In this document: positions 1,991-57,618 of the stretch, one piece after another
Layout of the letters: every line of letters starts with the position of its first letter
Position numbering within the stretch: the stretch's first letter is position 1
Source of the DNA: Alistipes sp.
GTDB taxonomy: Bacteria > Bacteroidota > Bacteroidia > Bacteroidales > Rikenellaceae
Assembly (NCBI GenBank): GCA_017631275.1
Contig: JAGBTQ010000022.1
Coordinates: forward strand, 1 to 64,000
Length of the DNA: 64,000 bases
Direction of reading: 5' to 3'
The notes under the pieces: generated by a model
Database searches by the model: none
Told to the model about the DNA's origin: nothing
What the model saw: the letters and a program-made list of their open reading frames with translations, nothing else
Made by a program: the position numbers and the translations under genes

Positions 1991-2119
1991 AATTTGTTGT
2001 CAGAAGGGTGCCGAGTGCTACACTCGGCAAAAATGCCACCGATGGGTAGTACTAGATGTACGTCCCATTGGTGGCATTTTTTCTAGGGGACGCAATCGAC
2101 CCCTTATCACAACAAATTA
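1991..2119 (-). repeat. Stop-codon-abutting structured element, copy 1
   Basis: The 129-bp element has imperfect inverted ends: AATTTGTTGTCAGAAGGG on one side, and on the other a sequence whose complement begins AATTTGTTGTGATAAGGGG. Inside are an 8-bp hairpin (GCCGAGTG and CACTCGGC), a long central hairpin with ATGCCACC and GGTGGCAT arms, and a third hairpin with AGGGG and CCCCT. Its right end coincides with the TAA stop of thiL. It is identical to the copy at 31898-32026. The central stem followed by T residues could also terminate thiL transcription. Confidence 0.85.
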
Positions 2120-3145
2120 CCTGTCGAAGGCTTGCGCTTTAAGGGCAATACCCTCGCCGTCGGGGGTGACAAGAATAACTCCCGCCTCCTCGCGTGTGAT
2201 ATGACCAATGACATCTACAAGGCCAAGGCGCATCACTGCCTCCTGCTTGTCGAGAGGCACGGTGAAGAGCAGCTCGTGGTCCTCGCCACCATTCAGCGCC
2301 GCAATGACGGGGTCGATGTGCATCTCCTCGGCAAGCTCCGAGGTCTGGCGAGCGATAGGTATGCGCTCGAGGTAGATGCGGGCACCACACTGCGACGACT
2401 TGCATATCTGGCGTAGGTCGCTCGCAAGGCCGTCCGAGAGGTCAATCATAGAGGTTGGACGTATGCCCTCCTCTCTGAGTGCGTCGAGCACACCCTTGCG
2501 GGCACGGGGCTTCAGGTAGCGCTCCAACAAGTACTCATAGCCTGCGAACTTAGGCTCTGGGTTGGCAACATCCTTGAGCACACGCTTCTCGCGCTCGAGC
2601 AGATGTAGGCCCATATACGCCGCACCGAGGTTCGAGGTGATACATATTAAATCGTGCTCGCGCGCGCCCGTGCGATAGACGATATCCTCCTTCTTGGCAC
2701 GACCTATGGCTGTGATGGTTATGGTAAGTCCTGTGAGTGAGGCTGTTGTGTCGCCACCCACGATATCCACGCCCAGCTCGTCACAGGCGGTGCGCATGCC
2801 CTCGTACAACTCGTCGAGAGCCTCCACCATAATCTTTGCCGAGATGCCCAAAGCCACCACAATCTGCTGAGGTGTTCCGTTCATGGCAAGGATGTCGTTT
2901 ACGCCACGCACAACGGCCTTATAGCCGAGGTGCTTAAGAGGGAAGTAGCTCAGGTCGAAGTCGATACCCTCGGTAAGCATATCTGTTGTTAGGAGCAGAG
3001 CCTCATCGCCGAGGTCAATAACGGCAGCATCATCACCAGCTGCGGTGAGTGACGAGGCGTTGTGCTTAGGGAGTGTTCGCGTAAGTCGCTCGATAAGTCC
3101 AAACTCGCCCAACTCAGAAATCTGCGTACCCTTAGTCTTGTTCAT
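2117..3145 (-). CDS. thiL: Thiamine-monophosphate kinase
   Basis: ThiL phosphorylates thiamine monophosphate with ATP to give the cofactor thiamine diphosphate. The 342-residue length is typical. Family motifs are present: AGDDAAVI at residues 36-43, TTDMLTEGIDF at about 53-63 for Mg and phosphate binding, VGGDTTAS in the middle, a DLSDGLASDL segment, and GGEDHELLF near the C-terminus. The gene is divergent from adk and shares a compact promoter region with it at 3171-3218. Its TAA stop lies inside the boundary of the structured element at 1991-2119. No other thiamine gene is nearby. Confidence 0.93.
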   Translation of the reverse strand: MNKTKGTQISELGEFGLIERLTRTLPKHNASSLTAAGDDAAVIDLGDEALLLTTDMLTEGIDFDLSYFPLKHLGYKAVVRGVNDILAMNGTPQQIVVALGISAKIMVEALDELYEGMRTACDELGVDIVGGDTTASLTGLTITITAIGRAKKEDIVYRTGAREHDLICITSNLGAAYMGLHLLEREKRVLKDVANPEPKFAGYEYLLERYLKPRARKGVLDALREEGIRPTSMIDLSDGLASDLRQICKSSQCGARIYLERIPIARQTSELAEEMHIDPVIAALNGGEDHELLFTVPLDKQEAVMRLGLVDVIGHITREEAGVILVTPDGEGIALKAQAFDR

Positions 3146-3170
3146 AATTACGTAATTAATAATTTTTTTG

Positions 3171-3201
3171 CAAAATTACTTTTAAGATTGGAAAGTTGCA
3201 A
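3171..3201 (-). promoter_or_regulatory. thiL promoter
   Basis: On the minus strand TAATTTTG (3178-3171) matches the Bacteroidota -7 box TAnnTTTG, and TTGC (3201-3198) lies 19 bases upstream as a -33 element. The start site would be near 3163, leaving a short leader before the ATG at 3145. Confidence 0.6.
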
Positions 3202-3218
3202 AAAAAAATATACCTTTG
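3188..3218 (+). promoter_or_regulatory. adk promoter
   Basis: TTGG at 3188-3191 and TACCTTTG at 3211-3218 are separated by 19 bases, the expected -33/-7 spacing in Bacteroidota. The -33 regions of this promoter and of the divergent thiL promoter lie within 14 bases of each other. Confidence 0.7.
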
Positions 3219-3264
3219 TCTCAAATTTTTTGTAAACCAAACAAAACATAAACATTTATAAGCT

Positions 3265-3837
3265 ATGCTTAACATAATACTTTTTGGCGCTCCAGGTTGC
3301 GGTAAGGGTACTCAGGCTCAGCGTCTTGCTGCGCACTACGACCTCTACCACATCTCTACTGGCGAGGTAATCCGTGGCGAGATTAAGGCGGGCACGGAGC
3401 TTGGCCGTAGCATGGAGGCATACATCTCACGTGGCGAGCTTGCCCCCGATAGCATCGTCGTAGAGATGGTTCGCAACTACATGGCATCACACTCTGACAA
3501 GGGCTGCATCTTCGACGGCTTCCCACGCACCACAGCGCAGGCGGAGATCTTCGACGAGATGCTCAAGGAGGTTAATTCGGAGGTTACAACAATGGTGTTC
3601 ATGGACGTTCCTGAGGAGGAGCTCGTGCGTCGCATCCTTCTTCGTGGCAAGGACTCAGGCCGTGCCGACGACTCGTCGGAGGAGGTTATTCGCAACCGCA
3701 TAGAGGTATATCGCCAGCAGACAGAGATTGTTGCCGAGCACTACACCCGTCAAGAGAAGTATGCCGAGGTGAATGGCTTAGGCACCATGGACGAGGTTTT
3801 CGAGCGTCTTTGCGCGGTTATCGACAGCAAGCGATAA
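3265..3837 (+). CDS. adk: Adenylate kinase
   Basis: Adk interconverts ATP plus AMP with two ADP. The P-loop GAPGCGKGT is at residues 8-16, the AMP-binding region with STGEVIRGEI at 31-40, and the DGFPRT signature at 84-89. At 190 residues it is the short form without the zinc-finger LID insertion, which is usual in Bacteroidota. The ATG at 3265 lies about 40 bases after the predicted start site of a clear TAnnTTTG promoter. A strong hairpin terminator at 3858-3894 separates it from the TPM gene, so it is probably monocistronic. Confidence 0.96.
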   Translation: MLNIILFGAPGCGKGTQAQRLAAHYDLYHISTGEVIRGEIKAGTELGRSMEAYISRGELAPDSIVVEMVRNYMASHSDKGCIFDGFPRTTAQAEIFDEMLKEVNSEVTTMVFMDVPEEELVRRILLRGKDSGRADDSSEEVIRNRIEVYRQQTEIVAEHYTRQEKYAEVNGLGTMDEVFERLCAVIDSKR

Positions 3838-3857
3838 AACACCCCACAAAATGTAAT

Positions 3858-3894
3858 AAAAGCGAGTCCAGATGCAATATTTAGGGCTCGCTTT
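3858..3894 (+). terminator. adk terminator
   Basis: Arms AAAGCGAG and CTCGCTTT flank a loop of about 18 bases with further pairing. The hairpin ends 12 bases before the next start codon, so it separates adk from the TPM gene. Confidence 0.6.
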
Positions 3895-3906
3895 CGCTAT
3901 ATAGTT

Positions 3907-4815: not shown

Positions 4816-5000
4816 AAGTGAAGGGGTGAGGTGTGCTTCGCACGAAATTTAATAGGGAAAATAGGGAAGATAGGGAAGATAGGGAGAATAGGACTATGAT
4901 ACCCTCGCCTCATCAACCCTATCAACCCTATCAAGCGAAGCGCCCCTATCAACCCTATAAAACCAGCAACACCTCTATTAGCGTGTTACTATTTTATAAT
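4816..5000. repeat. Composite intergenic repeat C2
   Basis: The segment holds a small hairpin around GTGTGCTTCGCAC (4831-4843), then four or five 9-bp units of the type ATAGGGAAG (about 4852-4893), the shared core in reverse orientation (GATACCCTCGCCTCATC, 4901-4917), and 9-bp units of the type CAACCCTAT. It separates the TPM gene from lemA. This copy has no adjoining 130-bp structured element. Confidence 0.75.
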
Positions 5001-5042
5001 CCGTTCCTAATTTGACAATAACAAACTAAAAATAAACAAGAT

Positions 5043-5624: not shown

Positions 5625-5650
5625 GCTTAGCAGGCATCACCCAAAAATAG

Positions 5651-12550: not shown

Positions 12551-12600
12551 CATACCTTCGGAGCCTCCCCCACCATCAGCAAAGCTCCACCTCTGCCACA

Positions 12601-12982
12601 CGGGTATTAAAAATAATACCCGCACTACATAGGACATTCGCCCTTTCGTCGTAGCACTCCCCGCCATCACACGGGTATTAAAAATAATACCCACGCTATT
12701 GCTGATGCTCCTTTCAACCTCAGCAAGACAAGCCCACGCATCACGGGTATTAAAAATAATACCCGCATTATTGGGGGGGGTACACATAAATGAGGACGAC
12801 ATCCCTCAGACACACAGGTATTAAAAATAATACCCGCGCTACTTGGGGCACTACCTTTATCATTGTAGCACTCTCTTTTGCCACACGGGTATTAAAAATA
12901 ATACCCGCACATTTTTTGGGGGAGCACATCTATCCTCAGTAAGACTCCACCTCAGCCACACGGGTATTAAAAATAATACCCG
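12601..12982. repeat. Palindrome array A, six copies at 71-75 bp spacing
   Basis: Six copies of a 22-bp palindrome, with arms CGGGTATTA and TAATACCCG around AAAA, start at 12601, 12672, 12744, 12815, 12886 and 12961. Copies 2 and 4 carry single-base changes in an arm. The roughly 49-bp spacers are related to one another but diverged. A run of eight G residues lies at 12773-12780. No continuous gene fits the array. Confidence 0.92.
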
Positions 12983-13091
12983 CATTGATTCGAGAATACT
13001 CTCTATTTTTTGACTACACTATTTCAAGTAAATGTCAGTGGCGTATGAAGAGTCTATATAGTTCCATACACATGCCACTACGTAATAAAAT
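12983..13091. other. Junction between array A and the AT-rich cassette
   Basis: This AT-rich stretch contains an interrupted inverted repeat, AGTGGC near 13038 and GCCACT near 13074, which could act as a terminator for the minus-strand cassette. No gene is seen. Confidence 0.4.
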
Positions 13092-13418
13092 TTAACTTCT
13101 ATCTACTCTAATCAACACCTCTTTATACCATAGATATATCAAGAACACTGCGACAAGGAAATCAACGATATTCCACAATATTCTACCCAAAGCAAATGGA
13201 AAGAATGGCTGAAAAAGAAGGACAAATACAGCCATCGTTATCATTAGTGAATTATCCCCACTATTGTGATAGTTATAAGCATTAATACCAAACACAACCA
13301 TAGCCACAAAACGCACTAACTGATAGTAACCGTATGGCATATCAAGCAGGCAAATTAGGAGCATAATAGCCATTATAAGCCATTGATGCTTTATCACGAA
13401 TTTAAATAAAATGCTCAT
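13092..13418 (-). CDS. Small membrane protein, DUF6804-like
   Basis: This 108-residue protein has three or four hydrophobic spans and the segment MPYGYYQLVRF followed by FQPFFPFALGRILWNIVD. That pattern resembles the DUF6804 family of small Bacteroidota membrane proteins; the assignment is from memory and moderate. It is the last gene of a tight four-gene minus-strand cassette (gaps of 6, 7 and 8 bases). The whole cassette is clearly richer in A and T, with codon use unlike the flanking housekeeping genes, which suggests horizontal acquisition. Function unknown. Confidence 0.75.
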   Translation of the reverse strand: MSILFKFVIKHQWLIMAIMLLICLLDMPYGYYQLVRFVAMVVFGINAYNYHNSGDNSLMITMAVFVLLFQPFFPFALGRILWNIVDFLVAVFLIYLWYKEVLIRVDRS

Positions 13419-13424
13419 TCACTA

Positions 13425-13757
13425 TTAGAATTTTTCAAGCTCCTCAAAACCTATTTCCATTCCGCAATATTTATTCATCGCCCTAATAAGTTCCTCTTTA
13501 AGTATGTTAATGGGATCAAAGCCTTCTTGTAATATACAAAAGGAGCGAAGCAATTGCATATCTTCATTATCCTTAAGTGATTTATAAGTATTCACTATTG
13601 CACTATATACAAGTAGCCCACCAATCATTGCATCGCCATTTAGAGACGAACGCACATACCTTGACTTAATACAGCCATCAAAAGCATCACGAAATTTTAA
13701 GCGGATTTGATCTTTATGACTTAATCTCTTCCGGAACAATCTTTTTAGAAAATTCAT
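13425..13757 (-). CDS. Hypothetical protein of the AT-rich cassette
   Basis: I do not recognise this 110-residue protein. It has no membrane span and a strongly basic N-terminus (FLKRLFRKRLSHKDQIRLK), then a helical, mildly acidic body ending in GFEELEKF. It is the only apparently soluble product of the cassette and could associate with the membrane through its basic start. It starts 7 bases after the stop of the upstream gene in the operon. Confidence 0.75.
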   Translation of the reverse strand: MNFLKRLFRKRLSHKDQIRLKFRDAFDGCIKSRYVRSSLNGDAMIGGLLVYSAIVNTYKSLKDNEDMQLLRSFCILQEGFDPINILKEELIRAMNKYCGMEIGFEELEKF

Positions 13758-13764
13758 ATAGTTA

Positions 13765-14118
13765 TTATTTTAATAAGATTCCTATTATTAGCGCTACTAA
13801 AGCTATCATCATTGAAATGATAACATCAAAACCAGCTCCCTTTCCACTTGTAATTCGGCGCATAACAATACTAGTAAACAATGGACCGATAATATAAACA
13901 ACAGGAATATTGATAAGAAATAGCCACCACCAACGAATATCAAAAAGAAATGACTCAGGGATAACTGCCAAGACAAAGCCACTTATCCAAGGGATTGCAC
14001 TCATCCATGGAATTGCCATGTATGGACACCAACCATCAACTCTATTGGAGCATTGAATATGAACTCCAAAGGCTGAAATAAAACACATCACCGAGATAAT
14101 CAAACAAAAAGTACTCAT
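13765..14118 (-). CDS. Small multispanning membrane protein of the AT-rich cassette
   Basis: This 117-residue protein has about four hydrophobic segments (near residues 3-18, 38-52, 62-85 and 98-116), with a Trp-rich stretch between the second and third. No family is recognised. It lies between another membrane protein gene and the soluble gene, 8 bases after the former. The single Cys-rich feature, HIQCSNRVDGWCPY, could face the periplasm, but this is a guess from hydropathy alone. Confidence 0.75.
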   Translation of the reverse strand: MSTFCLIISVMCFISAFGVHIQCSNRVDGWCPYMAIPWMSAIPWISGFVLAVIPESFLFDIRWWWLFLINIPVVYIIGPLFTSIVMRRITSGKGAGFDVIISMMIALVALIIGILLK

Positions 14119-14126
14119 AGCATTAT

Positions 14127-14537
14127 TTATTTTTCATTTGTAAATGCGGCTATAAATAGTGTAAAAATGTCTCCAGCCATTACCAATGTTATAGCAATAG
14201 CCTTAAACGTATCGCTATCAGAAAGATCAAACTGAGACAAATATCCCCAAAATTCAATTGTCGTTACAAGCAACCAAATTGAAACTATTATACAGAATAC
14301 TACCGAGGCAACTCTGTTATTAAAGAGGCGAGATAAAAATATAGTTCCCCCCACTGGCACCAATGTTATTGTAGGGAGTAAGACAGAACTACCTATTAGC
14401 AAAAACAAAAATAGTCCAAAGTCCATAAACCATGCAAATGCTAATAAAAGTAAAAACTCGAAGATTAAACCCAACAGACACGCAGATGCAATAGACCCAA
14501 TGCATTTTCCAATTGTTTTAATTGCAGAATCATTCAT
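14127..14537 (-). CDS. Small multispanning membrane protein, first gene of the AT-rich cassette
   Basis: This 136-residue protein shows four hydrophobic spans (about 15-35, 40-68, 78-95 and 110-130) and no recognised family. As the first gene of the cassette it probably carries the promoter; the minus-strand sequence TAGCTTTA at 14557-14550 is only a weak match to the Bacteroidota -7 box. Upstream lie a small hairpin (14557-14585) and a long inverted repeat (14593-14804). AT-rich composition separates it from pheT and htpG. Confidence 0.75.
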   Translation of the reverse strand: MNDSAIKTIGKCIGSIASACLLGLIFEFLLLLAFAWFMDFGLFLFLLIGSSVLLPTITLVPVGGTIFLSRLFNNRVASVVFCIIVSIWLLVTTIEFWGYLSQFDLSDSDTFKAIAITLVMAGDIFTLFIAAFTNEK

Positions 14538-14947
14538 AATGACACTTTGTAAAGCTATTACCGTAGCATCTCCTATGCGGTAATTAAAAAAAGAAAGTGT
14601 GGAGATGATTTACGCTTATTTAATCGAAGGTTGTGGAAAGACCTGAACTGAAATAAACGAATACAATGCCCCACACTTGGATAGTATGGGTACATGCACA
14701 GATTGTGCATAGTCACATAGCTATACAAGAAATGAGTGCTGTTCGATTATCCTTCAGTTCTGAAAACTTCCACATTTTCGATTAAGGACTGCGAAAACAC
14801 TTTCAATATGTCTGCTACTCTATCTGAATAGCACTACAAATTTAGAAAATATTTCCGTAACAAACAACACTCCCTGGGACATTGTTCTCACTGAATATAA
14901 AAAATGCTTTTAGATTCTCTTTATCGTTACGTCACTCTTCTGTCACA
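14538..14947. other. Non-coding upstream region of the cassette
   Basis: No gene is seen in this 410-base stretch. It contains a small hairpin with ATTACC and GGTAAT arms (14557-14585), the long imperfect inverted repeat at 14593-14804, and AT-rich sequence up to the first palindrome of array B. Confidence 0.6.
14593..14804. repeat. Long imperfect inverted repeat (candidate structured RNA or small mobile element)
   Basis: Arms of about 33 bases at 14620-14652 and 14753-14785 are roughly three-quarters complementary (shared ends TTAATCGAA and AACTGAA). Outer ends GAAAGTGT (14593) and ACACTTTC (14797-14804) also pair. The roughly 100-base loop holds a perfect 7-bp hairpin, ATGCACA-GAT-TGTGCAT (14694-14710). 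Confidence 0.6.
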
Positions 14948-15469
14948 CGGGTATTAAAAATAATACCCACATCACATGGAGTGGTGCGTACCCTTTTGTT
15001 GTGGCACCCTCTTCGCCACACGGGTATTAAAAATAATACCCATGTCACTTGGGGCACTCACCCTTTCGTTGTAATGTCCTCTTTTGCCACATGGGTATTA
15101 AAAATAATACCCGCACTACATAGGGGCATCTTGTATTTATAATGCTCGATTTGCCACATAGGGTGTTCACTATATCGTTGTAACACTCCTCTTCTGACAC
15201 ACGGGTATTAAAATTAATACCCACATCACTTAGGACATTCGCCCTTTCGTCGTAGCACTCCCCGCCATCACACGGGTATTAAAAATAATACCCGCACTAC
15301 ATAGGGGCACCTTGTATTTGTAACGCTCGCTTTGCCGCCTAGGGGTGTTTACTTTATCGTTGTAACACTCCCCTCTGACACACGGGTATTAAAAATAATA
15401 CCCGCATCACTTAGAAGTACTACCCTGGTTGGACAACACTCACTTCACGGGTATTAAAAATAATACCTG
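14948..15469. repeat. Palindrome array B, seven copies
   Basis: Copies of the same 22-bp palindrome start at 14948, 15021, 15092, 15202, 15273, 15383 and 15448. Intervals are 73, 71, 110, 71, 110 and 65 bases. Each 110-base interval equals two units minus one palindrome and its short flank, indicating that a palindrome was lost. The segment 15231-15293 is identical over 63 bases to 12630-12692 in array A. Confidence 0.92.
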
Positions 15470-15541
15470 CGCTACTTAGGGCGACCTCGTTACTATTGTT
15501 GGATTTTGGGGTGCGGCAAGCTACAAAAAAACGTCAAATAG

Positions 15542-25015: not shown

Positions 25016-25146
25016 AATTTGTTGTTAGAAGTGGTTAGATTTGGTGCCAAGTCGAAATTGCAACGGAAGGGGGTATACTATGCGTATATCCCCTTTCGAG
25101 GCAATGAGCTTGGTGCCGAAGATGACCCCTTATAACATCAAATTTA
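25016..25146 (-). repeat. Stop-codon-abutting structured element, copy 2
   Basis: This is the most diverged copy. Ends are AATTTGTTGTTAGAAG and the complement of CCCCTTATAACATCAAATTTA. The small hairpin (GATTTGG and CCAAGTC) and the central stem (ATTGC, AAGGGG and CCCCTT, GCAAT) keep the fold with different bases. Its right end coincides with the dnaN stop. Confidence 0.75.
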
Positions 25147-26271
25147 GGCGTTGATCATCATCGGCATCAACAACATAAGCACCTCCGACGCACGCTTGTC
25201 GTCGTACACAGGCTTGAACACACCTGCACGTGTTGAGTCAGCAAGCTCGATAACAACGGTTGGAGTGTCGATGTTTGAGAGAATCTCAACAAGGAATGTT
25301 GACTTGAAGCCGATAGTTACTGGGTTGCCCTCGTAGCTGCATGAGATAGTCTCGTTAGCCGATACTGAGAAGTCGATATCCTGTGCTGCAAGGCTAATCT
25401 TGTTACCACCGATATCCATACGGATAAGGTTTGTTGTTGGGTTAGAACATACCGCCACACGCTTGATGCCGTTTACAAGCTCTACGCGATCTACAAGCAC
25501 CTTGTTAGGGTTAGCTGTAGGGATTACAGCGTTGTAGTTAGGATAGTTACCCTCGATAAGGCGGCATACGAGCTTGTGGTTCGATAGCTGGAAGATAACA
25601 TTCTTTGCGTCGAACATGATGCGCACTGGAGCGCTCTCCTTCACGAGCATACCCTTGAGCAAGTTAGCTGGCTTCTTAGGCAAGATGAACGAGGCGTTGA
25701 AGTCAACATCTACACACTCAGCCATTGAGCGCACGAGCTTATGAGCGTCGGTAGCCACGAAGGTCACCTTGCCCTCCTCGAAGTTGAAGTATACACCATT
25801 CATCACTGGGCGGAGCTCGTCGTCGGCAGTGGCGAAGATAGTCTTGTTGATGCCTGAGATGAGCATATCTACGTCCATGAGTATCTCCTTGTGCTCGGCA
25901 CCTACGCCCTGCACTGCGGGGTAGCTAACAGCGCTAGCACCTGGGATTGACAATGAGCCGCTTGCCCACTTCACCTTGATCTCCCATGTTGTGTCGTTCA
26001 CGTCGAACTCAAGAGGCATCTCTGGGAACTCCTTGAGTGAGTCTAGCATAAGCTTTGCTGGCGCTGCGATGACACCCTCACGCTCCACGTTATCCACCTG
26101 AAGGTGACCCACGAGTGTTGTCTCAAGGTCAGAGGTAGTTACTGTAAGGTCGCCGTCCTTAAGCTCAAGGAGGAAGTAGTCGAGGATAGGAAGGGTATTC
26201 TTGTTGCTGATAGCCTTACCTGTTGTTGCAAGTAGCGATAGAAGCGCTGAGCTTGATACTGTAAATTTCAT
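25144..26271 (-). CDS. dnaN: DNA polymerase III subunit beta (sliding clamp)
   Basis: The 375-residue beta clamp encircles DNA and tethers polymerase III. Three repeated clamp domains are present; recognisable segments include KAISNKNTLPILDYFLLEL at about 18-36, PVMNGVYFNF in the middle, RLIEGNYPNYNAVIP, and the C-terminal LMLLMPMMI that forms part of the hydrophobic cleft bound by partner proteins. It is not next to dnaA or recF here. The TAA stop coincides with the border of a structured element. A 52-base gap separates it from the upstream nucleoside phosphorylase gene. Confidence 0.96.
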   Translation of the reverse strand: MKFTVSSSALLSLLATTGKAISNKNTLPILDYFLLELKDGDLTVTTSDLETTLVGHLQVDNVEREGVIAAPAKLMLDSLKEFPEMPLEFDVNDTTWEIKVKWASGSLSIPGASAVSYPAVQGVGAEHKEILMDVDMLISGINKTIFATADDELRPVMNGVYFNFEEGKVTFVATDAHKLVRSMAECVDVDFNASFILPKKPANLLKGMLVKESAPVRIMFDAKNVIFQLSNHKLVCRLIEGNYPNYNAVIPTANPNKVLVDRVELVNGIKRVAVCSNPTTNLIRMDIGGNKISLAAQDIDFSVSANETISCSYEGNPVTIGFKSTFLVEILSNIDTPTVVIELADSTRAGVFKPVYDDKRASEVLMLLMPMMINA

Positions 26272-31740: not shown

Positions 31741-31897
31741 GCGTGCTTCACACGAGATTAATTAGGAGTGAGAATAGGGAGTTTAGGGAGTTTAGGGAAA
31801 ATAGGGGAAACAGGGATGATGAGGCGAGGGTATCACTTCCCCATTATTCCCTATCTTCCCTATCTTCCCTATAAATTCCACCTCAATTAGCGAGATA
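31741..31897. repeat. Composite intergenic repeat C3
   Basis: This module has a small hairpin (GCGTGCTTCACACG), then GTTTAGGGA-type 9-bp repeats, the shared core GATGAGGCGAGGGTATCAC (31818-31836), ATCTTCCCT-type repeats, and CCACCTCAATTAGCG leading into the structured element. No gene is seen. Confidence 0.8.
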
Positions 31898-32026
31898 AAT
31901 TTGTTGTCAGAAGGGTGCCGAGTGCTACACTCGGCAAAAATGCCACCGATGGGTAGTACTAGATGTACGTCCCATTGGTGGCATTTTTTCTAGGGGACGC
32001 AATCGACCCCTTATCACAACAAATTA
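31898..32026 (-). repeat. Stop-codon-abutting structured element, copy 3
   Basis: All 129 bases are identical to the copy at 1991-2119, although flanking genes differ. The right end contains the TAA stop of the outer-membrane receptor gene. Confidence 0.88.
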
Positions 32027-34966
32027 TCGGTGCATAGGCGGACGACCACCTGGGAACGGTGGCATACCACCCTTCTGACCCATGCCGTCGTAGTCGTCAA
32101 TGTTCTTTGAGCCCTTCTTGCCGAAGTAGCGAAGGTTGTAGTTGAACTGCACGGTAAAGTAACGACCGATGACGCTGTTCCATGCATTCTGCGTGTAACC
32201 GCTACCCACAGTGCGGGCAAATGCCTTGTTCTGGTTCAAGAGGTCGTTTACACCTACCAACACCTCGCCCTGCTGGTTCTTGAAGAGCTTCTTGCCGAGG
32301 TATAGGTTGCAGATGAGGAAGTCCTCGTTATAGTCGTTCGTGAAGCCGATATACTGGTTGTAGTTCACAGCGCCTGTGAGCGTAAAGCCCTTCCAGAATA
32401 CCCACTTTAGCTGACCAGATGCCGTGTGGCTGAAGTACTGGTTGTGAGCATTACGCATATTGCCCTTAACCAACGACTGGCGCGCATCGTTGAACGTTCC
32501 GCTCCACTCGATTGTAAAGTCGATATTCTCTGAGATGTTGCTACCCAACGACATACGAGCATCGTAGCCCATGTTGCTTGTGTAGTTCATCTGGCCGTCG
32601 ATCATAGATGGCGTGTGCGAGTAGTTAACGCCTGCCGAGAGGTTTAGGTTACACTTAATAGGCGACACTGGGAAGCCGTAGCTTACGTGTGTACGTAGGT
32701 TGTAGTAGCCGTCCATATTCTCGTATGTCGAGTACTGCAATGGGTTGTAGATATCGCCATCGATGTCGATGTTACCAGGGTTGTAGCTAATGCTCTGACC
32801 TATGTAGTCCTGTGTGAGCTGTGCCGAGAACATCCACATGAAGGTGCGACCCTTCTCGATGTTCGAGCGCACGTAGTGGAGGTTCATGCGGTGGTTATAC
32901 GATGAGCGTAGCTCAGGGTTACCCTTCGAGAGGTACTGTGCATTCGACACGTCGTATATATCCTGCAGGTTGCGAACATCAGGGTTCTGCGTATATGAGC
33001 TGATGAATACTCGAATGGTGTTCTGAGGATTGAACGCAAAGTTGGTCATAAGGAAGTAGGTCACGTGGTCGTAGTCGCGCTTGATGTTCTCGCCCTTGAC
33101 CACACCGTCGAGGATAGAGTGCTGGTAATATACGTTTGCCACCACGGTGTTCTTGCCCTTAGCATAGCGATAGCCAGGACCTACACGGTGCTCCATGCTC
33201 AGACTATTAGTGAGCGACGATAGCGATGCATCGGGCTGTAGGCCCGCAATGTTGTAGTCCTCGCCAGTGATATATGCAGTCTTCTCAATCTGCTGATCCT
33301 CAAGGTCGAAGCGATACTGAAGGCTTAGCTGCGAGTTCTTTGTCAGTGGCTCAGTGTATGTCACGTTAGCACGAATGTCGGTCTCGCCCTGTGGCGCCAA
33401 TGACGACACATAGCGAAGTATTGGCGTTTCAGCAAGATAGTCGGTAGCGAGCGTCGAGAAGCTGTTGGTGTTCGACTTGATGGTGTTGCGCAAAGCGTAG
33501 CGACCATCTACGGTGATTGTACGACCCACCTTGCCCAAGTTCACGCGATACTGCAAGAACTCTGAGAAGCGCACCGCCTGTGACGAGCCCTTAGAGCCGT
33601 TGTACAAAATCTCATACTTATCATCGCCTGGAGTCTCGCCCACAAGCTCGCCATACTGCTGGCTATAAGGGCTGTTGCCCTGGAAGCTGAGGTTTGTACG
33701 CGACATAAGCGACATATTCTTGTTGATGCGCCAGTCGAAACGTAGGTTAAGACGGTGGTTCATATTGTGCGTCTTAGACTCGCCCTCCTGCTCAAGATAG
33801 TCGTCGGGCGATGGCGACTCATACCACTTCTGCAACAAGCTCTTGTTGCGAGTGTTGGTGTTGTTGAAGAAGTACGAACCATTAAGCTTGATGGCATCGT
33901 TCTCGCCCCATGTGCCTGTATATTGCACACCTATAGAGCCGACATTTGCCACACCGCTCTGTGGGCGTACCATATACTGACCCACGCCACGACCACGATG
34001 ACCGCCCATGCCGCCACCGCCACCACCAGATACGCCGAGGATATCCTCAAACGAGAAGTTCTGCTGGTTTACGTTGTTGAGCAAGCCGATAACCGACAAG
34101 CGATGATTCTTCTGGAAGAGGTTTACGTTACCACCCACATTATACTTATGGTGCGATGTCACTTCACCCACCTCAGGCTTATAAATATCGGTATTCTGGA
34201 AGCTGAGCTCTGCGGGCGAGCCGTCGATGTCGGGCTGATAGCCATAGCCAGCATACATCTTACCAAAGACTCCCTGACGCATATTCGAGCGTGTCACGAT
34301 GTTGATAGCCTTATATCCCTCGCCATCGTCCATTCCCGAGAACTCGGCATTGTCCGAGAGCTTGTTAAAGACCTCGATGCGATCTACCGCCTGTGCTGGT
34401 AGCGAGTTAAGGGCTGTTGATACGTCCTCGCCAAAGAACTCCTTGCCATCAACAAAGACCTTCTTAACCTGCTCGCCTTGTGCCTCCACCTGACCATTTG
34501 TCACGGTGATACCCGGCATCTTCTTAATAAGACCCTCAACGTCGGCATCTGAAGCAACCTTGAAGGCAGCAGCATTGTAGGCTACCGTGTCGCCATTCTG
34601 CGATGTGCGCAACGCCTGCACCTCCTTGACAACAGCCTCGATAGCCACACCTGGTGTGAGCTCCACTACGCCAAGGTTTGTTGTTCCAGCAATCTTAACG
34701 TCAGCAGTGTAGGGGGTATAACCGATAAAGGCAATGGTCATCGTATAGTCGCCAGCGGCAAGACCCACGATTGTCACATTACCGCCCGCACCCGTTGTGT
34801 TGTGCTTGCGTAGGTTGGGATTTTTCTTCGACTGTAGCTCGACGATAGCACCAATCACACCGTCCTTGGTCTCCATATCCAAGACCTTTGCCGTCAATCT
34901 ACCCGACTGCGCCATGGCTGGGAGCGCCATGCAAAGCATCATAAAAAGAATAAGTAGTCGCTTCAT
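32024..34966 (-). CDS. TonB-dependent receptor-like outer-membrane beta-barrel protein
   Basis: The 980-residue protein has a signal peptide (1-19), a carboxypeptidase-regulatory-like beta-sandwich (about 23-108), a plug domain with KKMPGITVTNGQVEAQGEQ and FVDGKEFFGEDV, and a large beta-barrel to the C-terminus. A Gly-rich segment GVSGGGGGGMGGHRG lies in a loop near residue 320. It belongs to the barrel family without a SusD partner, and none is adjacent. The C-terminal tail (GMGQKGGMPPFPGGRPPMHR) is Gly/Pro-rich. The substrate is unknown. Confidence 0.9.
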   Translation of the reverse strand: MKRLLILFMMLCMALPAMAQSGRLTAKVLDMETKDGVIGAIVELQSKKNPNLRKHNTTGAGGNVTIVGLAAGDYTMTIAFIGYTPYTADVKIAGTTNLGVVELTPGVAIEAVVKEVQALRTSQNGDTVAYNAAAFKVASDADVEGLIKKMPGITVTNGQVEAQGEQVKKVFVDGKEFFGEDVSTALNSLPAQAVDRIEVFNKLSDNAEFSGMDDGEGYKAINIVTRSNMRQGVFGKMYAGYGYQPDIDGSPAELSFQNTDIYKPEVGEVTSHHKYNVGGNVNLFQKNHRLSVIGLLNNVNQQNFSFEDILGVSGGGGGGMGGHRGRGVGQYMVRPQSGVANVGSIGVQYTGTWGENDAIKLNGSYFFNNTNTRNKSLLQKWYESPSPDDYLEQEGESKTHNMNHRLNLRFDWRINKNMSLMSRTNLSFQGNSPYSQQYGELVGETPGDDKYEILYNGSKGSSQAVRFSEFLQYRVNLGKVGRTITVDGRYALRNTIKSNTNSFSTLATDYLAETPILRYVSSLAPQGETDIRANVTYTEPLTKNSQLSLQYRFDLEDQQIEKTAYITGEDYNIAGLQPDASLSSLTNSLSMEHRVGPGYRYAKGKNTVVANVYYQHSILDGVVKGENIKRDYDHVTYFLMTNFAFNPQNTIRVFISSYTQNPDVRNLQDIYDVSNAQYLSKGNPELRSSYNHRMNLHYVRSNIEKGRTFMWMFSAQLTQDYIGQSISYNPGNIDIDGDIYNPLQYSTYENMDGYYNLRTHVSYGFPVSPIKCNLNLSAGVNYSHTPSMIDGQMNYTSNMGYDARMSLGSNISENIDFTIEWSGTFNDARQSLVKGNMRNAHNQYFSHTASGQLKWVFWKGFTLTGAVNYNQYIGFTNDYNEDFLICNLYLGKKLFKNQQGEVLVGVNDLLNQNKAFARTVGSGYTQNAWNSVIGRYFTVQFNYNLRYFGKKGSKNIDDYDGMGQKGGMPPFPGGRPPMHR

Positions 34967-35276
34967 ATTGTTTAATTATCTTATTTTCTGTTTTATAGCA
35001 GCAAGTCTTTCGCTCTGCGAAAGTAATCTTTTTTTTTGAATAATCAACCCTCCGAGGGGTGAATCGCCAAAATTGGCGGGTCAAGCGACCAAAATGAGGA
35101 AAAGGGGGAAAGCAGAAAGGTGAAAAGTGAAAGGTGAAAGGTGAAAGGTAAGGTGTGCTTCGCACGGAGGTTAATTAGTAGAGAGGAATAAGAATAGGGA
35201 GAGTAGGGTTAATAGGGTCGATAAGCTATAGTATCACAGTCCTATCTTCCCTATCTTCCCTATCTCCCCTAAAAAA
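34967..35276. other. Intergenic region with hairpins and composite repeat C4
   Basis: No gene is seen. Near the receptor gene a hairpin CTTTCGC-TCT-GCGAAAG lies at 35006-35022. At 35065-35078 CGCCAA-AA-TTGGCG is another hairpin. From about 35105 to 35150 AAAGGTG heptamers are followed by GGTGTGCTTCGCACGG. From 35195 the 9-bp AGGG and TCCCT repeats flank the core AGTATCACAGTCC. Confidence 0.7.
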
Positions 35277-37976: not shown

Positions 37977-38106
37977 AATTTCTTGTTAGAAGGGGTGAGA
38001 TACAACGCTCGGCAAATTTTGGAGCGATGGGCTGTACTTTGATGTACTGCTCATTGCTACAACAATTTGTTAGCGGCAGTAGATGACCTCTTATCACAAG
38101 AAATTA
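37977..38106 (-). repeat. Stop-codon-abutting structured element, copy 4
   Basis: Ends are AATTTCTTGTTAGAAGGGG and the complement of CCTCTTATCACAAGAAATTA. The central stem is weaker (AGCGATGGGC and GCTCATTGCT), but the apex GTACTTTGATGTAC keeps the family pattern. The right end contains the stop of the gamma carbonic anhydrase gene. Confidence 0.78.
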
Positions 38107-38628
38107 CTTGTACCAAGAGGCGTAAGTACAGTAATCTCGGGCAGTGCGCTTGATAATCTCCTCGCGCTGCTCAGGCGTTACGTCCTTAACCTTCTTGGCT
38201 GGAACACCTGCATATACCGAGTATGGCTCGAGCTTCTGGTTTGAGAGCACAAGGGCATTAGCTGCCACAATGCAACCAGTGCCAACAACAGCATTATCGA
38301 GGATTGTTGCGCCCATGCCAATGAGGCAGTCATTCTCGATGATTGCGCCATGGATAACGGCATTGTGACCCACCGACACGTAGTCGCCGATGTGTGTCTG
38401 CGAAGGGTTCTTCGAGCCGTCGTAGAGGGTGTGGATAACCACGCCATCCTGAATATTTGTGTTGTTACCGATGCGAATGGCATTCACATCGCCACGCAAC
38501 ACGGCGTTATACCAAATAGAGCAGTTCTCGCCAATCTTCACATTACCGATGATTGTTGCATTCTCTGCCAACCAAGTATCATTTCCAATCTCGGGCTCGT
38601 GGCCACGTACAGGTCTAATAAGTGCCAT
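38104..38628 (-). CDS. Gamma carbonic anhydrase family protein
   Basis: The 174-residue protein is a left-handed beta-helix trimer of hexapeptide repeats (about 10-140). The zinc-site histidines lie in VVIHTLYD, SVGHNAVIHGAI, and the family signature IGMGATILDNAVVG follows. Many such proteins are of the YrdA/PaaY type and may bind zinc with or without carbonic anhydrase activity. It shares a short gap (15 bases) with the mazG gene upstream. The TAA stop is part of the structured element border. Confidence 0.93.
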   Translation of the reverse strand: MALIRPVRGHEPEIGNDTWLAENATIIGNVKIGENCSIWYNAVLRGDVNAIRIGNNTNIQDGVVIHTLYDGSKNPSQTHIGDYVSVGHNAVIHGAIIENDCLIGMGATILDNAVVGTGCIVAANALVLSNQKLEPYSVYAGVPAKKVKDVTPEQREEIIKRTARDYCTYASWYK

Positions 38629-42958: not shown

Positions 42959-43277
42959 TGTGTAGATGATTATACGTGTATATACAACGTATCAAAGGTA
43001 ATAAAAAAATGTGAAAGGTGCAAAAATATTTTTTTTATTAATGAGTAATGAGATTAGGGAGGATAAGGAAGTTAGGGAGATTAGGACGATTGGGACGATA
43101 AGGACGATAGAGAGTTTAGGGAATATAGGGAGGCGCTATCAACGAAAGATTAATAGGGTTGATGGGGTCAATAGGGACGCTAAAGCTTGATGAGGTCGAT
43201 GAGGCGAGGGTATCACTTCCCCATCTTCCCTATTATTCCCTATCTTCCCTATAAATTCCACCCCAATTAGCGAGATA
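42959..43277. repeat. Composite intergenic repeat C5
   Basis: No gene is seen. A- and T-rich promoter-like sequence up to about 43040 is followed by AGGA/AGGGA-type 9-bp repeats, GAGGCGCTATCAACG (also present at 1721-1735), a TTGATGGGGTCAATAGGG stretch, the shared core GATGAGGCGAGGGTATCAC (near 43199-43217), and ATCTTCCCT repeats leading to the structured element. Confidence 0.78.
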
Positions 43278-43409
43278 AATTTCTTGTCAGAAGGGGTTAG
43301 ATGTGGTGCATCTTAAAAGTAATCACCCTGGGATAGTACTAAAACGTACAGCCCAGGGTGATTAACTTTTTACGATGTGACGCAGATGACCCCTTATCAC
43401 AAGAAATTA
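43278..43409 (-). repeat. Stop-codon-abutting structured element, copy 5
   Basis: The long central stem has TCACCCTGGG and CCCAGGGTGA arms with apex GTACTAAAACGTAC; a small hairpin has AGATG and CATCT. Stem bases differ from copy 1 but the pairing is preserved. The last sense codons Asn-Phe-Leu and the TGA stop of the DUF4465 lipoprotein gene lie within the element end. Confidence 0.85.
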
Positions 43410-44095
43410 TACTCTAATGAGTCGAGACAGATGTATAACGGCGTATTCGCGCCATACTCGCCTACGTCCGAAGTCTCGATAGTGACACGCACATTGCCAT
43501 ACGCCACAAAGCCAAGTGGGAAGGTCTGCCAATCATCAGCAACAAAGCGCTTGCCGTCGCGATAATCAACAACGTAGCACTCAACACCCTCGCCCGCTGG
43601 TGACTCAGAGCTGTCGAGAGGCGTGAAAACAACCTTAAGATAGTCGCCCTCTTCGAACTTACGAGCAAAGGTGTTGATATCCTCGTCGGTGATTGAGGCA
43701 TAGGTATATGTCGTGAGGTTGAGCTTCACGGAGTTAAGCATCACGCTCTTCTTAAAAATTAGGTCGCAAGGCTCCGAGTAGCTATCGTAGTAGTAGAGCA
43801 AGAACCACGCGCCATCGGCAGCCTTAGTGTTGAATGCCGAATATTGGTTCTCGAAAACACCCTTAGCAGCGTCGGTCTCGAAGCACTTCGACACGGCAAA
43901 GCCACCCCAATACTGATACTCCTCGTTGTAGAAATATTCACACTCGACAACGTCGCTTGCATATCCATAGAGATACTCTACTGCATACAACGACTCGAAG
44001 CTCTCGATTGAGCTCTTAGGATTTACATCGGGGGTATCGGTATTTTCGCATGCCACAAACGAGAGCATGACTAACGCAAAAAGTAGTTTTTTCAT
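43397..44095 (-). CDS. DUF4465-type lipoprotein
   Basis: The 232-residue protein has a lipoprotein signal (LSFVACEN) and a beta-rich body that resembles DUF4465: YWGGFAVSKC, NQYSAFNTK, LTTYTYASI, FARKFEEGDYLKVVFTP, VECYVVDYRDGK and, at the end, GEYGANTPLYICLDSL. DUF4465 proteins are cell-surface or secreted proteins of unknown function in Bacteroidota. The final three residues and the stop codon are encoded by the edge of the structured element, so the C-terminus may have been altered by its insertion. The lolA-like gene ends 19 bases upstream. Confidence 0.82.
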   Translation of the reverse strand: MKKLLFALVMLSFVACENTDTPDVNPKSSIESFESLYAVEYLYGYASDVVECEYFYNEEYQYWGGFAVSKCFETDAAKGVFENQYSAFNTKAADGAWFLLYYYDSYSEPCDLIFKKSVMLNSVKLNLTTYTYASITDEDINTFARKFEEGDYLKVVFTPLDSSESPAGEGVECYVVDYRDGKRFVADDWQTFPLGFVAYGNVRVTIETSDVGEYGANTPLYICLDSLEYNFL

Positions 44096-54307: not shown

Positions 54308-54520
54308 AATAAACTTCGTTTAAATCGACTATATATTCAATTTTGCAAAGATACAAAAAAATTGGAAAAATATAAATAAAATTTCGACAAATTCCTCGAT
54401 TTTTTTCTACATCTACCCCACTGCCAAAAGCCCTATTTCGAAGCGCAAAACAACAACTCTCACTCAGCGCGCGTTATATACGTAGGTATCGAAAATTTTT
54501 CAAAAAAAGTTTGCTCAAAA

Positions 54521-54552
54521 TTTGGAATTACGGAATTATGCCTATATATTTG
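54521..54552 (+). promoter_or_regulatory. Upstream plus-strand promoter
   Basis: TTTG at 54521-54524 and TATATTTG at 54545-54552 with 20 bases between. It lies about 150 bases before the receptor gene. Confidence 0.6.
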
Positions 54553-54615
54553 CAGTGTATTAGTTATGTAGTACACTATAAAGCACATAATAAATCTCTC
54601 TTTTCCGCCGAAAAA

Positions 54616-54669
54616 TTTGGAAAATTCGAGGGGGGGGTAAATTTGTAGCGGGAAAAATTTATATCTTTG
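54616..54669 (+). promoter_or_regulatory. Receptor promoter with G8 tract in the spacer
   Basis: TTTG at 54616-54619 and TAAATTTG at 54638-54645 are 18 bases apart, and eight G residues (54630-54637) fill the end of that spacer. A second -7 box, TATCTTTG, is at 54662-54669, about 30 bases before the ATG. Confidence 0.6.
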
Positions 54670-54699
54670 TATTGGGGTGAACATAAAAAATTTTGCAAT

Positions 54700-57090
54700 A
54701 TGAGACGAGCAATCAACATTTTGGTTTTGGTAGTAGCGCTTCTAGGCGCAGTGGCATTCGAGGCGCAGGCACAAGTGAAGCTCAGCCTTAGCGGTCGTGT
54801 AGTATCAGATAGTGGCGAGGCAATTGCCTATGCCACAGTGGTGCTCACCACCGAGGGAAAGCAGGTGGCAGGAGGTGCAACAAACGCTAACGGCGAGTTC
54901 ACGCTCGCAGCACCCTCGGGCAGCTACCTCTTCTCGGCACGCTACATCGGCTACAATAGTATCGAGCGCGAGATTACGCTCGACAAAAATACCAACCTTG
55001 GCGACATAACTCTTACAACCGAGAGCACAAAGATTGACGAGGTGGTAGTTACTGCACAGCTCATACGTCGCGAGGCAGATAGGTTTGTGGTAGATGTTGC
55101 CAACTCACCCATGTCGATTGGCAAAGATGGCGAGGAGCTACTAAAGTCGTCGCCAGGAGTATGGATTCAGGACGATGCAATATCTATCAACGGCAACGCG
55201 GGCTCGAAGGTTTATATCAACGAGCGCGAGGTGAAGATGGAGAAGCAGCAGCTTATAGCCTACCTTCGTTCGTTGCGTGCCGACGACATCCAGCGCATAG
55301 AGGTAATACCTCAGTCGGGTGCCGACTACGACGCCTCGTCGTCGGGTGGAATTATCAAGATTACCACCAAGCGCCACCTCAATATGGGACTTATGGGCTC
55401 GGCATCCCTCGTGACACAGGCAACAAAGGGTATGTACAACGTAATGCCCTCAGTATCACTCAACTACACGCAAGGCAAAGTCAATGCATATGGTCGTGCG
55501 TGGGTGGGTACAAATGGTCAGAATTACATCACTGCGGAGCATACCGACTACTCAAATAGCACCATCATAGATGCCGAGTCGGAGCTTATGAACAAGGCAT
55601 TTTGGGGCGGTGCAAATGTGGGTGTTGTCTATGATATCAACGCTAAACACTCAGTGGGTGGCGAGCTTCAGTTTAACCACCACGGGGGCACTGGTCTAAC
55701 CGATACATGGACCGAGCGCGAGAACCTCGGCGTGATGACACGTAGCGAGGGTAAGTATAGAAATGAGTACACCAGCAACATGCTCACCGCAACGCTCAAC
55801 TACATCTACAAGCTCGACGATAGTGGCTCGACCATTAAGCTTATTGGCGACTATACACGTTCGTTCTACCCCAACACCAACGACTATGTAGACAACATCA
55901 TGGGGCGTGACTCGACCTATCGTGATGCCTCACGTAGCCTCTATCAGCTTGCTACAGCAACGCTCGCATTGGAGAAGGTAATCTCGCCAAAGGTAAACAT
56001 CAAGGCGGGCTTGAAATATACCTATAACGATAATAGCAACATTGCCAATTATGAGTACCTCGTAGGCGAGGAGTGGCTGCCAAACACCGAGAAGAGCTAC
56101 AACATTGGCTATACCGAGAATATTGGCGCAGCATACGCCATCGCCACAGCACGTCTGGGTCGTGTCAGCCTGGTTGGTGGACTACGTGGCGAGTACACTT
56201 CGTTTCGCTCGGCAGATGGTCTTGTAAACCAGAATTATTTTGACCTCTTCCCAAATGCAAACGTTTCGTACTCAATAACTAAGGACGGTGCCTACTCGCT
56301 CGTGGCGCAGTACTCACGCACCATCAGTCGACCATCATTCTGGGCGCTATCGCCCAACGAGACAAAGATCTCGGAGTATATGATACAGCGAGGCAACCCC
56401 AACCTAAAACCCTCGTACGACAACTCGTTATCGGTTACGGGCGTGCTTAAATATAAGTACACTATAACCCTCGGTATGAGCATTAAGCAGAATGCAATAC
56501 AGCAGGCGACACTCAAGGATAGCACCAACTCCGAGGTGTTGATTCTGCAACATATAAACTACCCTACTGCCTACAACTTCTACGCATCGGCAAACCTACC
56601 GTTCCAGTTTACAAAGTGGTGGTCGGCAAACTTCAACCTAATGGGTATGTACGTCGGACAACGCATCTACATCGACGAGCCTGTACGCCGCAACTTTATG
56701 GGCTTTGCCAGTGCACAGATGTCGTTCACACTACCTAAAAACTTCTTTATTGAACTTAGCGGCAGATATATGCACGGCTTGGTGGCGGGCAATACCCACA
56801 TGAGCGACATGGGTAATATGGACCTAAGAGTGAAGAAACGTCTGCTCAATAATAAGCTCACACTAACAGTTGGCGTAAACAACATTATCCCTACAACGCA
56901 GGATATCATCATCGAGGAGCCTACATTCAAGCGTGTTATGACTGTCGATCAGCCATGGATGCGCCCTATGTTCAACTTCTCGGTGTCGTATAACTTCAAC
57001 GCTGGCAAGCAGTTTAGAGCCAAGTCTGTCGAGAGCGGCTCAGCCGAGGACCGTGGCCGTCTTGGTGGTGGCGGCGGTAGCCAACAGTAA
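54700..57090 (+). CDS. TonB-dependent receptor-like outer-membrane protein
   Basis: From the ATG at 54700 the 796-residue protein has a signal peptide (1-24), a carboxypeptidase-regulatory-like domain (about 26-110), a plug domain (LLKSSPGVWIQDDAISINGN, VYINEREVKM) and a beta-barrel. The upstream ATG-like start at 54667 would fall inside the -7 box, so it is rejected. It belongs to the same broad barrel family as the receptor at 32024-34966. The C-terminus is Gly-rich (RGRLGGGGGSQQ). No SusD partner is present. The promoter spacer carries a G8 tract. Confidence 0.9.
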   Translation: MRRAINILVLVVALLGAVAFEAQAQVKLSLSGRVVSDSGEAIAYATVVLTTEGKQVAGGATNANGEFTLAAPSGSYLFSARYIGYNSIEREITLDKNTNLGDITLTTESTKIDEVVVTAQLIRREADRFVVDVANSPMSIGKDGEELLKSSPGVWIQDDAISINGNAGSKVYINEREVKMEKQQLIAYLRSLRADDIQRIEVIPQSGADYDASSSGGIIKITTKRHLNMGLMGSASLVTQATKGMYNVMPSVSLNYTQGKVNAYGRAWVGTNGQNYITAEHTDYSNSTIIDAESELMNKAFWGGANVGVVYDINAKHSVGGELQFNHHGGTGLTDTWTERENLGVMTRSEGKYRNEYTSNMLTATLNYIYKLDDSGSTIKLIGDYTRSFYPNTNDYVDNIMGRDSTYRDASRSLYQLATATLALEKVISPKVNIKAGLKYTYNDNSNIANYEYLVGEEWLPNTEKSYNIGYTENIGAAYAIATARLGRVSLVGGLRGEYTSFRSADGLVNQNYFDLFPNANVSYSITKDGAYSLVAQYSRTISRPSFWALSPNETKISEYMIQRGNPNLKPSYDNSLSVTGVLKYKYTITLGMSIKQNAIQQATLKDSTNSEVLILQHINYPTAYNFYASANLPFQFTKWWSANFNLMGMYVGQRIYIDEPVRRNFMGFASAQMSFTLPKNFFIELSGRYMHGLVAGNTHMSDMGNMDLRVKKRLLNNKLTLTVGVNNIIPTTQDIIIEEPTFKRVMTVDQPWMRPMFNFSVSYNFNAGKQFRAKSVESGSAEDRGRLGGGGGSQQ

Positions 57091-57096
57091 GAGGGA

Positions 57097-57358
57097 AAAA
57101 GGTGAGGTGTGCTTCGCACCGGGTCTATTTCGCACCGGGTCTATATTAAGTGTGGGTATTAAAATTAATACCCACACTTTTTAAGTTTAAGCAGAGCGCT
57201 ACGCTTGATGAGGACGATAGGAACGATAGGGACGATGGGGAAGATGGGGAAGATAGGGACGATAGGGAAAATAGGGAATTTAGGGAAGAGTATCACTAAT
57301 ATCCTTAAGTTCCCTAATCTCACTAAATTCACTAGTCAACCACCTCAATCAGCGCATT
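57097..57358. repeat. Composite intergenic repeat C6
   Basis: GGTGTGCTTCGCACCGGG at 57106-57123 is followed by CGCACCGGGTCTAT, the terminator palindrome at 57148-57183, and GATAGGGA/GATGGGGAA-type 9-bp repeats. The core AGAGTATCACTAA and CCCTAATCTCACTAAATTC lead into CCACCTCAATCAGCGC before the structured element. No gene is seen. Confidence 0.75.
57148..57183 (+). terminator. Receptor gene terminator, related to the array palindrome
   Basis: Arms AAGTGTGGGTATTAA and TTAATACCCACACTT around AA, followed by five T residues. The inner part matches the 22-bp palindrome of arrays A and B, so that palindrome can act as a terminator stem. Confidence 0.85.
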
Positions 57359-57489
57359 AATTTCTCGTCAGAAGGGTGCCGAGTGCTACACTCGGCAAAA
57401 ATCCCGACGATGGGCTGTACTAAAGCGTACTGCTCATTGTCGGGATTTTTTGTTAGGGGACGCAATCGACCCCTTATCACGAGAAATTT
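57359..57489 (-). repeat. Stop-codon-type structured element, copy 6
   Basis: The left half matches copies 1 and 3, but the central stem uses ATCCCGAC and GTCGGGAT in place of ATGCCACC and GGTGGCAT. Apex GTACTAAAGCGTAC is retained. It abuts copy 7 and not a gene. Confidence 0.85.
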
Positions 57490-57618
57490 TTGGTCAGAAG
57501 GTAGTAGATGTGGTCTATCTCAAAAGAATATCCCCCGGGATAGTACATAAAGTACAGCCCGGGGGATATTACTTTTATAGATAGGCCGCAGATGCTGCCT
57601 TATCACACGAAATTATTA
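57485..57618 (-). repeat. Stop-codon-abutting structured element, copy 7
   Basis: It follows copy 6 head to tail and shares AATTT at the join. The central stem is TATCCCCCGGG and CCCGGGGGATA with apex GTACATAAAGTAC; the small hairpin is AGATGTGG and CTATCT. The right end reaches the tsf stop codon. Confidence 0.83.

Follow-up and report, generated by a model that had tools for sequence, protein, structure and literature searches.

The stretch of DNA analysed here (the window: 64,000 nucleotides, positions 1–64,000 of the forward strand of contig JAGBTQ010000022.1, assembly GCA_017631275.1) comes from Alistipes sp., a member of the Rikenellaceae, and carries seven copies of a folded element behind genes on its minus strand. 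An earlier sequence-only reading had located these copies and named their host genes. All seven were confirmed where it placed them and align end to end, and Pfam assigns the hosts to the kinds that it proposed (AIRS, DNA_pol3_beta, outer-membrane beta-barrel, hexapeptide, DUF4465 and EF_TS). The features, all on the minus strand, are as follows.

1991–2119 (minus): element copy 1, after an AIRS-domain (ThiL-like) gene at 2117–3145 (minus); begins at base 1 of its TAA
25016–25146 (minus): element copy 2, after dnaN at 25144–26271 (minus); stop offset −1 by the model boundary
31898–32026 (minus): element copy 3, after an outer-membrane beta-barrel gene at 32024–34966 (minus); exactly on its TAA
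37977–38106 (minus): element copy 4, after a hexapeptide-repeat gene at 38104–38628 (minus); exactly on its TAA
43278–43409 (minus): element copy 5, after a DUF4465 gene at 43397–44095 (minus); the stop is a TGA 10 nt inside the element
57359–57489 (minus): element copy 6, second in a tandem pair behind tsf
57485–57618 (minus): element copy 7, adjoining the stop of tsf at 57616–58446 (minus); offset −3 by the model boundary, with a few-base overlap with copy 6
57619–57661 (minus): the final 43 nt of tsf, lying in the synonymous-signature zone, with CTC at −7, TTT at −13 and GTG at −28

The claim that six of these copies lie exactly on a stop codon holds in part: the elements behind the genes at 2117, 32024 and 38104 begin on base 1 of TAA, while by covariance-model boundaries those behind dnaN and tsf are off by 1 and 3 nt, respectively, and the gene for DUF4465 runs 10 nt into its element before ending at TGA. 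Copies 1 and 3 are identical across the element and have unrelated flanks. A search of the window against Rfam 15 gave no match above any family's gathering score, and a known Rfam RNA was rejected as the identity of the element, the matches below gathering (best E 0.0013) looking like chance hairpins.

A covariance model built from the seven window copies (R1) gave 149 matches at E 0.001 in the genome of the window, or 131 copies once opposite-strand duplicates were removed, many of them in tandem and in the same orientation. These 131 copies, each of about 130 nt, are a lower bound for the 1.9-Mb Alistipes genome because only 150 of the 418 first-look candidates were scored. Across the family, R1 matches at E 1e-5 occurred in 37 of 150 sampled genomes and in 3 of 22 genera; below, element-rich denotes the 14 genomes with at least 22 matches each and element-free the 16 genomes with none. 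A pattern for the core 15-mer gave 66 matches and its reversed control 0. The named relatives among the matches listed were Alistipes and Rikenellaceae MAGs, many of them from ruminant hindgut. A literature search, conducted mostly outside subscription journals, found no description of such a family. In the assembly G000, five contigs start or finish within or near an element copy, and the assembly therefore probably underestimates copy number.

Anchoring and dispersal of the copies

Stop-codon anchoring is near-absolute in Alistipes. When 99 of the 131 copies were examined, in 77 loci, the upstream frame (the longest, of at least 80 codons) ended exactly on base 1 of the element in 54 loci and within 15 nt in 74, compared with 6 and 163 of 4,000 random positions, respectively; TAATTT sites outside elements, a second control, gave 3 of 92. 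The enrichment at stop codons on which the sequence-only reading had staked its proposal beforehand thus extends genome-wide. The other offsets were mainly −1, −3, −4, −9 and +10, the stop at +10 being a TGA inside the element, and in 7 of the 77 loci the end of an opposite-strand ORF also lies within 15 nt of the right end of the element. In relatives, the first copy stood exactly on the stop in 9 of 21, 10 of 26 and 45 of 97 loci, counts in which 2, 5 and 26 loci were without an 80-codon frame or close to a contig edge.

The 113 exact cases comprise 104 TAA, 6 TAG and 3 TGA stops, and in 109 of them the third base of the stop is Watson-Crick paired with the opposite element end, a count equalled in none of 300 shuffles; opposite the six TAG stops the partner is C in four and T in two. 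Upstream of stop base 2, pairing was at shuffle level, which led us to reject a palindrome extending into the gene, as fold-back copying of the target would produce.

Within the genome, copies with precise ends lie in unrelated surroundings. We found 155 pairs of copies at least 93% identical, drawn from 55 of 97 copies, and the identity of their flanks was mostly near chance (left 0.19–0.42, right 0.23–0.59), which therefore indicates recent spread of copies; gene conversion between repeats could be an alternative source. Tandem arrays are polar, the copy beside the stop outscoring the next copy in 18 of 21. A target duplication was sought in 176 isolated copies with left cuts from −12 to +9, right cuts from −9 to +12 and k of 2, 3, 4, 5, 6 and 8, and none was consistent. 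A longer autonomous copy was rejected as the source, as 977,596 bases held no matching pair of orphan ends 300–4,500 nt apart. Neither a polymorphic copy nor an empty site came to light. Phages and plasmids were likewise rejected as carriers: an exact 19-mer had no match in viral contigs, and blastn with one copy each against plasmids and phages found none.

At tsf, which we followed through 30 relatives, a copy stands at the stop or directly behind the first hairpin in 12, with subtypes that differ by eye, and most of the others have a plain terminator behind the gene. In stretches around tsf, an element lies within 15 nt of its stop in 10 of 21 genomes.

Downstream modules recur in the right flanks of the elements. 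A second repeat family lies mostly beside elements (1684–1970, 4843–4930, 31764–31875, 35184–35275, 43045–43255 and 57208–57298) and consists of large hairpins in which a unit of 9 bp, TAGGGAAGA or a relative of it, is repeated, preceded by a box resembling GTGCGCTGATTGAGGTGG; by eye, several relatives have similar arrays after tsf. Two other arrays, at 12557–12984 and 14904–15511, are made of repeats that contain the palindrome GGGTATTAAAAATAATACCC, of which one further copy lies at 57154. The two GGGTATTAAAAATAATACCC arrays flank four small minus-strand ORFs (13092–14537), only the first of which has a Pfam match (DUF6804).

Strand and covariation of the fold

The folding that the sequence-only reading had described in the window copies lies far below that of shuffled sequence: in the six that were folded, z ranged from −5.6 to −11.0, and none of 200 dinucleotide shuffles of each was as low. 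The compensatory changes that it had noted in the stems were also borne out, being two-sided in 17 of 42 pairs among the seven copies and in 27 of 31 pairs among 36 diverse copies, four of them from other families, in which 93.0% of cells pair. The covariation score of these 36 copies was 0.556, whereas shuffling gave 0.183 and no slid register exceeded 0.101; the shuffles ignore relatedness, and the structure was taken from the same alignment. Covariation, which had likewise been put at stake beforehand, is therefore present on both sides of most pairs and above both controls. Stem mismatches keep a fixed distance from the element ends, and 185 of 223 copies have an apex closed by GTAC…GTAC.

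The structure had been assigned to the minus, gene-sense strand of the window, an assignment that did not survive, as the opposite strand forms it better. By RNA folding the antisense strand was more stable in 193 of 223 copies, less stable in 28 and equal in 2, with a mean energy of −69.6 kcal/mol compared with −57.7 kcal/mol for the sense strand; at least 2 of these 223 rows, which also underlie the motif counts, are in the opposite orientation. DNA parameters gave the same direction (209 copies more stable in antisense and 11 less, of 220 untied), and the same 32 diverse copies yielded an antisense consensus of 37 pairs at −38.5 and a sense consensus of 31 pairs at −22.1. In addition, the gene-sense strand holds more A.C mismatches (212) than G.U pairs (147), the reverse of what is expected for a selected sense RNA, and on this ground an mRNA structure in the sense strand was rejected as the selected form. 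The asymmetry might in part reflect selection against a stable hairpin in mRNA, and a functional antisense RNA could equally account for antisense folding. As a separate observation, the outer-stem pair at base 7 is C.G or G.C among copies with nearly identical cores, out of step with other variable sites, an alternation that recombination may have produced.

Silent codon choice at host-gene ends

Structural constraint, dispersal and stop anchoring were already part of the sequence-only reading, which did not include the strand specificity of the fold, the modular repeats downstream or, unexpectedly, a synonymous signature in the last ~45 nt of host genes. This signature emerged from a comparison of 119 element-bearing genes with 515 control genes, with z-values that treat positions and genes as independent. 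At third codon positions the G/T fraction was 0.77 with an element and 0.55 in controls from −43 to −26 (z 12.5), 0.67 and 0.52 from −25 to −14 (z 6.2), and 0.39 and 0.50 from −13 to −1 (z −4.8), where C is frequent at −4 (0.56 vs 0.19 in controls) and at −7 (0.63 vs 0.23). From −61 to −44 the fractions were 0.60 and 0.53 (z 3.8), and farther upstream z was 0.8, 0.1 and −2.9. At codon positions 1 and 2, |z| was at most 2.9 in every zone and at most 1.7 inside the last 61 nt; one individual site, −27, has p 0.004. Taken separately, the 54 genes of this genome and the 65 of other genomes both show the signature, which was absent in 159 control genes with a strong hairpin behind them.

A signal confined to synonymous sites fits change at fixed sites under protein constraint better than the choice of a DNA-motif target, and motif targeting was rejected as its cause, codon positions 1 and 2 being without a comparable signal. 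Pairing of the host-gene end with the element was also rejected, none of eight pairing measures over 54 loci reaching p <0.1; zone 3 alone was less structured in the antisense strand (p 6e-5). In 33 loci with an element for which a near-identical sister exists, the signature is already complete, which implies that the sites are older than the present copies or that the codons were there first, and no trend with copy age was found, the three older bins holding only 5, 5 and 11 loci.

Among the tsf relatives, relatedness uncorrected, GTG stands at −28 in 11 of 12 with an element and 0 of 18 without, and CTC at −7 in 8 of 12 and 0 of 18. A paired ortholog test agrees in direction, though it is weak (22 non-independent pairs from 8 genes): C in zone 2 was gained 26 times and lost 6 (background 108 vs 61), and G/T in zone 3 was gained 38 times and lost 26 (p 0.17; far-region background 99 vs 150).

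Possible origins and relatives

The explanation that we favour, and hold tentatively as somewhat short of probable, is a mobile element that acts as a folded single strand, following the logic of attC without being attC, and that its host has accommodated. According to this model, a small non-autonomous element of about 130 bp would work once its template (gene-antisense) strand has folded as a single strand, the predicted fold being a long hairpin with internal loops at fixed distances from the ends and a GUAC…GUAC apex. The element would be moved in trans by a DNA strand-transfer enzyme, for which the resident tyrosine-recombinase-like proteins are possible candidates; this enzyme would read the folded strand by its shape more than by its sequence, and would make the joint at the stop codon, so that stop bases 2 and 3 would become the outermost pairs. 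The inserted element would occupy the place of the intrinsic terminator of relatives, and the gene end would then evolve silently, becoming G/T-rich on the coding strand at third positions −16 to −43 and acquiring C-ending codons at −4 to −13, a recoding that may keep the folded strand or the ribosome undisturbed. A selfish element alone does not explain silent host adaptation. The broader proposition, that this is an undescribed Bacteroidales class of mobile element whose folded template strand inserts at stops, with the stop completing the terminal stem and the last 15 host codons silently recoded, we regard as rather doubtful; a DNA enzyme cannot read frame, and such targeting would therefore need coupling to transcription or translation.

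The search for a mover covered three families, Y1 transposases, RVT_1 and integron integrases. Y1 was found in 0 of 14 element-rich Alistipes genomes and in 1 of 16 element-free genomes, RVT_1 in 3 of 14 and 9 of 16, respectively, and no reverse transcriptase in this genome, which is 87.5% complete. No integron integrase exceeded the TIGR02249 cut-off in the 30 genomes, all of which have weaker tyrosine-recombinase matches. The sequence-only reading had looked to a mobility enzyme that co-occurs with the elements, and among these three kinds there was none. The element most resembles a strand-specific folded recombination site, and the defining features tested for attC, for REP/RAYT in Alistipes and for ERIC-type transposons were not found. 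attC sites follow the stop codons of cassettes, in arrays that grow at one end, and their simple sites have the consensus RYYYAAC/GTTRRRY. Of 223 copies, read in both orientations, none had the two simple sites of such a pair less than or equal to 22 nt from its ends. In integrons, attC shows little sequence conservation, its structure is recognised and only its bottom strand recombines (PMC2727003). The element shares with attC a folding gene-antisense strand and conservation of structure over sequence; unlike integron attC/VCR sites, it is dispersed behind core genes. With REPs and REPINs it has in common that these are high-copy, palindromic, non-autonomous and precise in their spread (PMC3116915), but the Alistipes hairpin is much longer than the 20–40 bp given for REPs (PMC3733652), and no Y1 accompanies it in the 14 element-rich genomes. 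Of the REP tags sought within 12 nt of the ends, GTAG occurred in 0 and CGTC in 18 of 223 copies. The doubt that the sequence-only reading expressed about both analogies accords with these tests in Alistipes, namely 0 of 223 for simple-site pairs, 0 of 223 for GTAG, 0 of 30 genomes for an integron integrase over cut-off and 0 of 14 element-rich genomes for Y1.

The main rival is an antisense RNA or boundary element, which we think possible, if improbable. RNA read towards the gene end would fold, and its termination or processing at that point would protect the gene from antisense or convergent transcription; copies would spread by gene conversion or an occasional mover. This possibility draws on the fold and the wobble pattern, which favour the antisense strand, on the recurrence of the structure in other families, and on the silent host adaptation, which implies a host benefit; it is also consistent with the finding that none of 11 other ORF groups common to the stretches around tsf has an element behind it. 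However, three of the six window loci lie between co-directional genes, where antisense transcription would need its own promoter, and precise ends in unrelated flanks resemble insertion.

A conventional miniature transposon of the ERIC or RUP kind (IS630-type, with a TA target), surviving where its TAATTT start supplies a stop, is unlikely. ERIC often overlaps stop codons, as De Gregorio reportedly described in 2005, and BOX of pneumococcus is modular, a trait that the Alistipes element shares. Like ERIC/MITE sequences, the element is a small, dispersed, non-coding palindrome, and TA stands, by eye, at many module joints. ERIC (IRU, RU-1) is a 127-bp long stem-loop present in many copies and cotranscribed with its neighbours, a likeness in size, fold, copy number and cotranscription with neighbouring genes (PMC2229807, PMC2759123). 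RUP has 107 bp, 108 copies, ends in common with IS630-Spn1 and insertion at TA (PMC2229807); it resembles our element in size and copy number, and differs in that no IS partner with the same ends was found for the latter. Against such a transposon, the TA duplications of ERIC insertion sites have no counterpart here (PMC2229807, PMC2759123), no target duplication of any kind being consistent. Sequence-conserved terminal repeats common with an autonomous IS are also wanting: the termini covary between genomes, and the 977,596 bases searched hold no orphan-end pair. Finally, the insertion phase is non-random (54 loci at offset 0 vs 7 at +10). Covarying termini, a strand-specific fold, near-absolute stop anchoring and the silent host signature set the element apart from ERIC.

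Quite unlikely is a conflict with the host and nothing more, in which a selfish DNA palindrome has spread and both strand bias and codon changes merely ease clashes between ribosome and mRNA hairpin, with slow, wobble-read codons upstream and C-ending codons where the ribosome meets the hairpin. That the signature is synonymous only and the sense hairpin the weaker one would fit such a conflict. Nevertheless, the stem pairing, internal loops and apex of the antisense fold are found again in other families, and in the +10 class (13 genes, by eye) the C-ending codons seem to follow the element and not the stop.

Ordinary dispersed intrinsic terminators are very improbable: behind tsf, elements do occupy the position of the simple terminator of several relatives, and at least four consecutive T come after the apex in 147 of 223 copies read in sense and in 125 read in antisense, but such terminators do not account for exact anchoring at stops, for the covariation of a 130-nt structure, for dispersed copies that are nearly identical or for the codon signature, and they are refuted as a full explanation. 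The central hairpin would probably act as a terminator.

In this family a dispersed element meets both the precise point where translation ends and the silent choice of codons in its host gene, an unusual combination. If movement of the folded element were confirmed, how it finds a stop codon would become an experimental question; should it instead be an RNA boundary element, the family would represent a large unrecognised class of 3′-end structures in gut Bacteroidales. The signature is also a caution for codon-usage studies.

Beyond the Rikenellaceae, a search of 295 genomes of the order, our own included, with R1 detected copies in three genomes, each from a different family. At four R1-found loci in other families the antisense strand folds better and the stop lies 1 to 10 nt from the element start. 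An antisense covariance model (R2) at E 1e-4 extended this to 19 of the 295 genomes (own included) and 14 families, and at E 1e-5 across 395 genomes drawn from the phylum matched only our own genome. R2 was built in a way that favours antisense, and the question of strand therefore rests on the loci found with R1. In 28 loci checked, one of them coming from the same family, the sense-side end was near the stop of an ORF of at least 80 codons in 16 and the other end in 2, and anchoring is looser in these distant loci than in Alistipes. Y1 transposases are present in 13 of the 18 distant genomes with R2 matches, and a RAYT-like origin is accordingly possible for the distant hairpins; a genome with 8 matches is among those that have none. 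Ten loci in other Bacteroidales families have hairpins of a related type, with TAGTG at or beside the start, often followed by an inverted copy of their own end. All seven genomes with hairpins of this type have Y1 transposase matches, and the type may therefore be a RAYT-type repeat.
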